In this document: positions 62,857-64,000 of the stretch, one piece after another
Layout of the letters: each line of letters begins with the position of its first letter
Position numbering within the stretch: the first letter of the stretch is position 1
DNA from: Myroides phaeus
GTDB lineage: Bacteria > Bacteroidota > Bacteroidia > Flavobacteriales > Flavobacteriaceae
NCBI RefSeq assembly: GCF_900099675.1
Contig: NZ_FNDQ01000001.1
Location: 124,001 to 188,000, forward strand
Direction: 5' to 3'
DNA length: 64,000 nucleotides
Made by a program: the position numbers and the translations under genes
The notes under the pieces: generated by a model
What the model saw: the letters and a program-made list of their open reading frames with translations, nothing else
The model's database searches: none
Told to the model about the DNA's origin: nothing

Positions 62857-63378
62857 ATGAATGAGATGAGAATAGAAGATTATATTAGAGATATTCAAGA
62901 TTTTCCAAAAGAAGGTATTGGATTTAAGGATATTACTCCTCTTTTAAATGACCATGAAGCTATGGTTGAGACTACCAAACAGTTATTAGAACTTATTGGT
63001 GATCAAAAAATAGATAGAGTTGTGGGTATGGAGAGTAGAGGTTTCTTTTTTGCAACTTTATTAGCTGAGAAATTGGGGGCTGGTTTTGTTCCTGTACGAA
63101 AACCTAAAAAACTTCCTTTTGATACTATTTCTGAAGAATATAGTTTAGAATATGGAACCGATATTTTAGAGATGCATGCAGATGCTATAAAACCAGGTGA
63201 AAAAGTATTGATTCACGATGATGTTTTAGCTACTGGAGGAACAGCTGAAGCTGTATGTAAATTAGTAGAAAAATTGGGTGGTGAAATTGTTCAAGTTAAT
63301 TTTTTAATGGAGCTATCTTTTCTTCATGGACGCAAGAAATTAGCGAAATATGATGTAAAAAGTTTACTGACTTACTAA
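62857..63378 (+). CDS. apt: adenine phosphoribosyltransferase
   Basis: APRT (173 aa) converts adenine + PRPP to AMP. IEDYIRDIQDFPKEGIGFKDITPLL, GMESRGFFFATLLA and the PRPP motif VLIHDDVLATGGTAEA are conserved. ATG 62866 (three codons in) is an equally good start. Confidence 0.96.
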   Translation: MNEMRIEDYIRDIQDFPKEGIGFKDITPLLNDHEAMVETTKQLLELIGDQKIDRVVGMESRGFFFATLLAEKLGAGFVPVRKPKKLPFDTISEEYSLEYGTDILEMHADAIKPGEKVLIHDDVLATGGTAEAVCKLVEKLGGEIVQVNFLMELSFLHGRKKLAKYDVKSLLTY

Positions 63379-63457: not shown

Positions 63458-63527
63458 TAAAAAGTCTTGCATATTTGAAAAATAATTGCAAACCTTTGTT
63501 TCAGCTAATTAAGTAGCTAAATATCAA

Positions 63528-63635
63528 ATGATGAAAACCATTTCAAATATTATTTTTTCTTTGAACAACATTGCTCCTGCAACTGTTGCGGTTTTTGCTA
63601 TTCTTACTTCGCGGTCTTCGCGGTCACGGGCTTAA
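63528..63635 (+). CDS. arginine-rich leader peptide (candidate)
   Basis: 35 aa (start may be the second ATG, 63531). The body is neutral and hydrophobic; the tail is RSSRSRA, with Arg encoded three times by CGG, a codon otherwise scarce in this AT-rich DNA. The stop lies in the stem of a terminator-like hairpin. It precedes what looks like the first gene of an arginine operon by 156 bases. The layout is that of a ribosome-mediated attenuation leader: scarce Arg-tRNA would stall the ribosome at the CGG codons. Confidence 0.65.
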   Translation: MMKTISNIIFSLNNIAPATVAVFAILTSRSSRSRA

Positions 63636-63653
63636 TTTTTTTAAGTCTTTTTT
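63629..63653 (+). terminator. attenuator-like hairpin
   Basis: GGCTTAA (63629-63635) pairs with TTAAGTC (63641-63647), one G-U, 5-base T loop, then six T. It overlaps the leader stop codon, so a ribosome stalled on the Arg codons would cover its left arm. A second small dyad TGATGC/GCATCA follows at 63658-63676. Confidence 0.5.
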
Positions 63654-63668
63654 AATGTGATGCTTTTT

Positions 63669-63683
63669 TGGCATCATATCTGT
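63669..63683 (+). promoter_or_regulatory. weak sigma-54-like box
   Basis: TGGCAT, CATAT, CTGT: resembles the boxes at 94 and 41622 but is weaker and overlaps the small dyad. It may be a chance match. Confidence 0.2.
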
Positions 63684-63791
63684 ATATATATCATCGAATT
63701 TTAACATTATTCAATTACCTTAAAGGAGTTCTTGTATCCAAGAATTAACTCTTGTATTGGGCATTTTGAATACTAATTCTCTGTTTTTGAA

Positions 63792-64000
63792 ATGAATTCA
63801 AATCAGTTTTTCGTTATTCCTGCGAATGAATCTCACGTAGGATATGCTGAACAAATTTGCGAAGAAATGGCGCAGTCTGCATTAGCCAGAGGTACTGGTA
63901 TTGCACGAAGAAAGCCTGAGTATGTGTCCAATAAAATGATTGAAGGTAAGGCTGTTATAGCACTTCATGCTGATGGAACGTGGGCTGGTTTTTGTTATAT
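63792..64000 (+). CDS. GNAT-family N-acetyltransferase, partial (arginine operon start)
   Basis: The first 69 codons of a gene that runs past the window. The start MNSNQFFVIPANESHVGYAEQI and the later IEGKAVIALHADGTWAGFCYI look like a GNAT acetyltransferase. In flavobacteria such a gene commonly heads the arginine biosynthesis operon (before argG), where it may act as an N-acetylglutamate synthase. The Arg-rich leader upstream supports this. Confidence 0.7.
   Translation, partial: MNSNQFFVIPANESHVGYAEQICEEMAQSALARGTGIARRKPEYVSNKMIEGKAVIALHADGTWAGFCY

Follow-up and report, generated by a model that had tools for sequence, protein, structure and literature searches.

The segment 63528-63635 of the window (the whole 64-kb stretch of DNA analysed, which lies within one contig of a 58-contig assembly totalling 2.97 Mb) very probably encodes a cis-acting arginine leader peptide that controls the adjoining arg operon. 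The evidence comprises the unusual codon choice of this short ORF, its conservation in relatives, the nature of the genes that follow it and the recurrence of Arg-tailed ORFs upstream of the same gene in other Bacteroidota.

Leader ORF and the arg operon

Re-reading of the sequence and its ORFs confirmed the 35-residue frame with an Arg-rich tail and three CGG codons that the initial annotation had described. The peptide, MMKTISNIIFSLNNIAPATVAVFAILTSRSSRSRA, ends in SRSSRSRA, and all three of its C-terminal arginines are specified by CGG codons, starting at 63612, 63621 and 63627 and standing seven, four and two codons before the stop. CGG is otherwise rare here, accounting for only 4 of the 594 Arg codons in 41 ORFs of the window (ATG-started, free of mutual overlap and 150 codons or longer), a usage at which three CGG out of three would be expected by chance with a probability of about 3e-7. 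Upstream of the leader are genes for an apt-like phosphoribosyltransferase (62857-63378) and a family 9 glycosyltransferase.

The ORF is conserved in its frame, its length and its Arg codons in the genome studied and nine relatives, the ten leaders aligning without gaps over 35 codons. R29 and R32 are Arg in all ten and R34 in nine, the L041 leader carrying two Arg and one Trp at the last position, and the residues between the fixed Arg positions vary. The second Arg codon is CGG in five of these leaders and CGC in the other five; the first CGG is invariant in all 14 sequences of an alignment that includes 13 relatives.

The initial annotation further placed a GNAT gene of the kind that opens arginine operons behind the leader, and both parts of this reading hold. 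The product of the 63792 gene gave no match in Pfam or NCBIfam, and a profile built from 27 of its relatives matched the solved GNAT acetyltransferase PA4794 (E 3e-8). Genes of the arginine pathway follow it in the contig, in the order argG, argC, argD, argF, argB, a gene for an ArgE/DapE-family deacylase and argH, the argF product being of the N-acetylornithine-carbamoyltransferase-like type. The AlphaFold model available for the Myroides marinus GNAT protein (mean pLDDT 88.4) supports no claim made here. The nearest named matches of this first arg gene come from Myroides strains and an uncultured Flavobacterium (89-92% identity), and on these grounds the same-family (f1) genomes were taken as Flavobacteriaceae. 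Among the matches listed, the first arg gene of the Myroides-type clade (63792-64000 and L064-L075) showed 71-74% identity to Sphingobacteriaceae and only 52-60% to most own-family genomes, a distribution that hints at transfer of the operon together with its leader.

Table 1. Features of the leader region, numbered as in the window, and one example (last line) of the hairpin of same-family genomes, numbered within locus L170
Feature	Position	Strand	Basis or remarks
Candidate promoter: -33 TTG (63467-63469), 21-nt spacer, -7-type box AACCTTTG (63491-63498)	63467-63498	+	Alignment of nearest relatives
Small hairpin AGCTA/TAGCT at expected transcript 5' end	63503-63518	+	By eye in the relatives' alignment
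Arginine leader ORF	63528-63635	+	ATG 63528, TAA 63633-63635, 35 codons; 33-38 residues in L040, L042, L043 and L079
Hairpin P1, within first two thirds of leader ORF	63534-63595	+	Covariation
Small hairpin CGCG/CGCG over CGG1-CGG2	63610-63622	+	-5.5 kcal/mol
Hairpin P2, leader stop codon in 5' arm, followed by six T	63628-63653	+	Weak intrinsic-terminator candidate
Hairpin P3, arms ATGTGATGCT/GGCATCATAT, no T-run behind	63655-63679	+	-12.1 kcal/mol, z -5.7
First arg operon gene, GNAT-type acetyltransferase, 226 aa	63792-64000, runs on past the window	+	Contig neighbours and profile match
AGGUG[A/U]GUCC hairpin, example L170	1499-1566	minus	Behind Arg leader of a same-family arg operon

Arginine leaders in other Bacteroidota

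Short ORFs with Arg-rich tails were searched for upstream of arg operons in relatives, using a sample made up of the best GNAT matches and not a random draw from the phylum, in which the 139 loci gave 130 distinct upstream regions for counting. An ORF with at least three Arg in its last 10 residues occurred in 81 of the 130 regions against 3.9 expected from dinucleotide shuffles, the next excess being that of Pro (6 vs 2.0). Over the last 16 residues the corresponding counts were 87 vs 12.6 for Arg and 38 vs 8.0 for Pro, the latter fitting the RRRP-type tails. Typical tails are VPVRRRP in the own family (L007), SRRRPYMPRV in Mucilaginibacter, PTPFRVRR in Chitinophagaceae, LRRQMFFFRV in Algoriphagus, and LRFRRPILPRA and LRLRRPILPRA in Sphingobacterium and Parapedobacter, and several Flavobacterium-type loci have two or three spread Arg. 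In some same-family loci (L018, L028, L008 and L026) two Arg-rich short frames in tandem, such as MLRRRM or MRRRFPRRT, precede the first gene.

Within the genus sample the three-Arg rule selected 13 of 29 distinct regions, and no Arg leader was detected at the same-genus loci L044-L048 and L050-L052. In three of these leaderless loci (L044, L050 and L052) AGATA..TATCT-like palindromes are found upstream of the GNAT gene, those of L045 and L046 being less clear; they probably mark a DNA-binding regulator acting instead of a leader.

For further comparisons the leader criteria differed slightly, giving sets of 87 loci (terminators), 80 (start accessibility) and 83 (codon use and stop hairpin) that include some chance ORFs (for instance L049, L054 and L056); the looser rule expects 12.6 in 130 by chance. 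The Arg codon use of the 83 all-clade leaders, compared with that of the GNAT genes, is mainly marked by avoidance of AGA (5.9% vs 26.6%), with CGG moderately raised (17.3% vs 10.2%).

The arginine repressor ArgR (PF01316) was found above cut-off in none of 60 genomes, the one studied here included, with a single weak match in G008, nor in any of the 38 genomes carrying the first arg gene, with or without leaders (G032 is common to both sets). In a control search 9 of 14 genomes gave a match, eight of them above cut-off, E. coli and Bacteroides being among the nine. The failure to detect ArgR above cut-off argues against control of the own arg operon by this repressor. Leader peptides may be an answer to how arginine synthesis is controlled in Bacteroidota that have no detectable arginine repressor.

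Intrinsic-terminator candidates were sought from 30 nt before the leader stop to the first gene under a strict rule that misses one-mismatch stems of the L035 type. They were present in 14 of the 87 leader loci against 3.3 expected from shuffles, and in just three of the 14 (the own locus, L023 and L039) is the stop-codon hairpin itself the candidate. As the remaining 73 loci appeared free of intrinsic terminators, terminator control looks clade-specific. In 81 of 83 loci the leader stop is either paired or lies enclosed by a stem, compared with 67 of 83 for windows 60 nt upstream and 38 of 83 for windows 60 nt downstream. An unusually stable stop hairpin in every arg leader, also considered, is weakly supported, the mean energy z being only -0.64.

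A different RNA structure stands behind the arg leaders of same-family genomes. The hairpin GGAA-(AGGUG[A/U]GUCC)-UUCC occurs once each in 41 of 149 own-family genomes, the reversed-pattern control giving 2 matches, and a pattern search located no copy in the genome studied here. In 29 of 30 loci (L144-L173) the GNAT gene starts 30-84 nt downstream of it. An Arg-rich ORF, typically ending in ...RRRP with its stop in GCCCGUAAGGGU, terminates 19-23 nt before the hairpin in 25 of the 30; the AGGUGAGUCC hairpin accompanies leaders of the RRRP type. At the remaining locus, L165, the operon opens with a gene for another GNAT protein (PF00583), which is followed by argG; hairpin and leader are retained in spite of the different first gene, which argues that the element goes with the arg operon. 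By eye, the GGUGA of the hairpin can pair with the Arg codons UCGCC. No Rfam 15 family matched in the 15 loci scanned, five of them carrying the hairpin, and, if confirmed, it would represent a new RNA element.

RNA structures around the leader and models of control

At the candidate promoter position TTG and TTTG are kept in the nearest relatives, and TTG 63467-63469 is presumably the -33 element. A scan for sigma-70-type promoters yielded no excess (5 found vs 5.6 expected). The own -7-type box differs at its first base from the consensus TAnnTTTG quoted in PMC9723704.

Two hairpins of the transcribed leader, P1 and P2, are supported jointly by numbers of paired cells and a covariation score above those of all 500 shuffles, the number of pair types being unexceptional (299 of the 500 shuffles reach it). 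P1 has an outer stem (63534-63539/63590-63595) and an inner one (63566-63574/63579-63588), in which both partners have changed in five of nine pairs across a set of ten sequences. In P2, 63629-63635 pairs with 63641-63647, one pair being G.U, and the T-run occupies 63648-63653; sequence and folding thus agree with the initial annotation, which had set the stop codon inside a GGCTTAA/TTAAGTC stem with six T behind. The energy of P2 is -5.9 kcal/mol, where shuffled sequences average -0.53 (z -7.2); this is weak for a terminator though far from chance, and just one of its eight pairs changes on both sides in the gapless alignment. Its 8-nt tail holds 5 or 6 U in the own sequence, L035-L039, L064 and L065, 3 U in L066, and 2-5 U across L040-L043 and L079 (L040 2, L043 3, L041 and L079 4), so that it is mostly the nearest clade that retains a good U-tract. 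A rule-based search for terminators picked out 63577-63591 (1 found, 0.3 expected) and passed over P2, probably because its rule demands three G-C pairs. The small hairpin over CGG1 and CGG2 can also be seen by eye in L035-type sequences despite their CGC at the second Arg codon, and the arms of P3 co-vary by eye between relatives.

The effect of a stalled ribosome was modelled by folding with a standard ribosome footprint, taken to reach about 12 nt beyond the first base of the A site. In the own sequence the predicted probability of P2 is 0.96 for free RNA and 0.97 for a ribosome at CGG1, falling to 0 once the ribosome stands at CGG2, at CGG3 or on the stop; twelve other sequences behaved much alike, L043 retaining 0.2 at CGG2 and L079 being irregular. 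Hence, the proposal of the initial annotation that a ribosome stalled on CGG masks the terminator is only partly supported: it agrees with the model for CGG2, CGG3 and the stop, and fails for CGG1, where P2 still forms. Since a ribosome at CGG1 leaves P2 unmasked, the model could even have termination favoured under severe starvation; CGG1 may contribute an extra delay, or the bulk of the ribosome beyond the modelled footprint may hinder P2. The terminator invoked by the initial annotation is likewise only partly supported: a weak P2 with a U-tract does exist in the own clade, and 73 of the 87 leader loci have no intrinsic terminator under the strict rule. The remark that no antiterminator stem is obvious is supported, in that no structure competes with P2 in the stall model. 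For the own clade, neither this model nor the shared-helix scan revealed an antiterminator or any distant segment paired with the Arg codons, the scan being a weak negative, as its strict rule passed over P2 and P3 as well and returned only local helices. The same scan detected in the own clade no pairing of the LEU type between the Arg codons and the first-gene start. The modelled accessibility of the GNAT start changed on simulated stall in 0 of 13 own-clade loci, which argues against sequestration of the start codon there. In 9 of 14 clade sequences, though not in the own one, a shared helix covers the GNAT start (63768-63800).

From these data we infer a mode of control in which ribosomes translating the leader and awaiting charged tRNA-Arg at the CGG codons beside the stop would hold P2 open, and transcription would continue into the arg operon in the Myroides-type clade, where P2 bears a U-tract. 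When arginine is plentiful, the ribosome would clear the codons and leave the stop, or would trail RNA polymerase, and P2 could form and end transcription. By analogy, P1 might serve as a pause hairpin, giving the first ribosome time to close up on the polymerase. We give about even credence to control of the operon through P2 as a terminator.

Other leaders of the same genome bear on this question. Among the upstream regions examined (hisG, ilvD, two homoserine dehydrogenase genes and trpE), hisG (L174) is preceded by the His leader MFTNKLHHHHHLTCTHASR with a T-tailed hairpin of -14.0 kcal/mol and a candidate antiterminator read by eye, and trpE (L180) by the Trp leader MNTQFLNTNWWWLTQSDKGFSWLCCVFK with a strong T-tailed hairpin. 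One thrA-like gene (L178) follows the Thr leader MLKQGNTYNSISTPTIFVGGIAIVSTSLTTSTSSSSSTSTP, ending ...STSLTTSTSSSSSTSTP, whose end ACCCCGUAAAGGGGU forms a stop-codon hairpin with no T-run. No leader was seen upstream of the second thrA-like gene or of ilvD, where the DNA is coding. The His run stands 9-13 codons before the stop (with one further codon at 4) and the Trp run 17-19 codons before it (with one at 7), their terminators lying further on, whereas the last Thr codons (2 and 4) and the Arg codons (2, 4 and 7) abut a stop that is itself in a hairpin. This arrangement supports two leader designs within one genome, a distal terminator for his and trp and a stop-codon hairpin for arg and thr, in line with the absence of an obvious antiterminator in the arg leader.

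The arginine leader could also function without terminator attenuation, the stalled ribosome affecting, for example, Rho loading, decay of the RNA or first-gene translation, with a T-run that is incidental or auxiliary, a reading that we find possible but rather doubtful. The scarcity of terminator candidates across leader loci, with only three at the stop-codon hairpin, and the T-run-less stop-codon hairpin of the own thr leader point in this direction, as do the helix over the GNAT start in most clade sequences, though not the own one, and the complementarity, in Sphingobacterium and Parapedobacter, between the Arg codons CGACGACC and a GGUCG that closely precedes the first gene. Against it, simulated stall left start accessibility unaltered in the own clade, and the strong T-tailed hairpins of the own his and trp leaders show terminator attenuation to be at home in this genome. 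The CGACGACC/GGUCG complementarity was noticed by eye at most of the loci examined in L068-L075 (L068 has only GGUC), within 25 nt of the start of the first arg gene, and LEU-like translational control is possible in these genera. As start accessibility changed on simulated stall in just 1 of 8 loci of the Sphingobacterium group, this pairing is a lead only.

The reading in which the stalled ribosome masks P2 is itself weighed down by the weakness of P2, its single covarying pair, the unmasked state at CGG1 and the 73 loci without terminator; our confidence in it is evenly divided. For ArgR-less Bacteroidota at large we tentatively put forward, with somewhat less than even confidence, a widespread family of arginine leaders mostly without intrinsic terminators, in which hungry Arg codons would reach up to a hairpin-held stop and clade-specific RNA parts, such as the AGGUG[A/U]GUCC hairpin, would sense the parked ribosome; the Myroides-type clade would have made its stop hairpin a terminator, and the own thr leader would follow the terminator-free design.

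A classical attenuator of the trp/his type with an overlooked antiterminator is very unlikely. The own his leader does look classical, with its strong terminator and by-eye antiterminator, and P1 resembles a pause hairpin, but the P2 stem has a probability of 0.75-0.97 with the ribosome at CGG1 across the nine nearest sequences, no competitor appeared in the model, the strict helix scan gave only local helices, and the Arg codons stand much closer to the stop than the His and Trp runs. Scarcely credible is a chance ORF over the stem, with the operon under a DNA-binding regulator as the palindromes at some of the leaderless same-genus loci could suggest, and we reject it on the rarity of CGG, the conserved frame and Arg positions and the recurrence of Arg leaders upstream of the same gene.

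Relation to known leader systems

In the trp, his and pyrBI attenuators of E. coli, as in the fungal arginine attenuator peptide, the position of the ribosome on a leader ORF decides expression. The trp and his attenuators rely on an antiterminator; in pyrBI the ribosome blocks the terminator directly and the signal sensed is UTP; the fungal peptide stalls ribosomes at high arginine. Leader-peptide attenuation has long been known. Our searches of the open-access literature, partly with narrow queries, returned among the matches listed no report of a leader with Arg codons at an arginine biosynthesis operon.

Several published systems come close in one respect or another. In Flavobacterium psychrophilum, a member of the same family Flavobacteriaceae, 'strong clues' of leader-peptide attenuation upstream of amino-acid operons have been described (PMC9723704), arginine operons being unnamed in the text consulted, and for Bacteroides there are similar hints concerning sORFs located in 5' UTRs (PMC7366714). 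In actinobacterial ilvB leaders the cognate codons overlap a T-tailed terminator, as in the arg leader described here; these leaders differ in serving branched-chain amino acids in Actinobacteria, and the authors report having seen no conserved RNA structures at the arginine operons of that group (PMC1262725, 2005). Also treated there is the LEU element, in which a run of cognate codons pairs with the translation start. The rbfL leader peptide of S. aureus likewise senses arginine via rare Arg codons, but it governs translation of the biofilm regulator rbf, not biosynthesis, and expression drops when arginine is short (PMC13009471). The choice of attenuator codons that favour the most starvation-sensitive tRNA has also been discussed (PMC1183508).

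No known RNA family matched the arg leaders scanned against Rfam, and in the own leader region the sole match up to E 1 was a snoRNA (E 0.99) outside the leader. The distal-terminator design of his and trp and the stop-hairpin design of arg and thr can be compared within one strain. The own trp leader scored 39.7 bits, under the cut-off of 49, against the Bacteroid-trp leader RNA (RF01692, PMC2864571, 2010), which Rfam labels as the Bacteroidete tryptophan peptide leader RNA; that family differs from the arg leader in serving tryptophan, and the trp leader of this genome has a strong, separate terminator.
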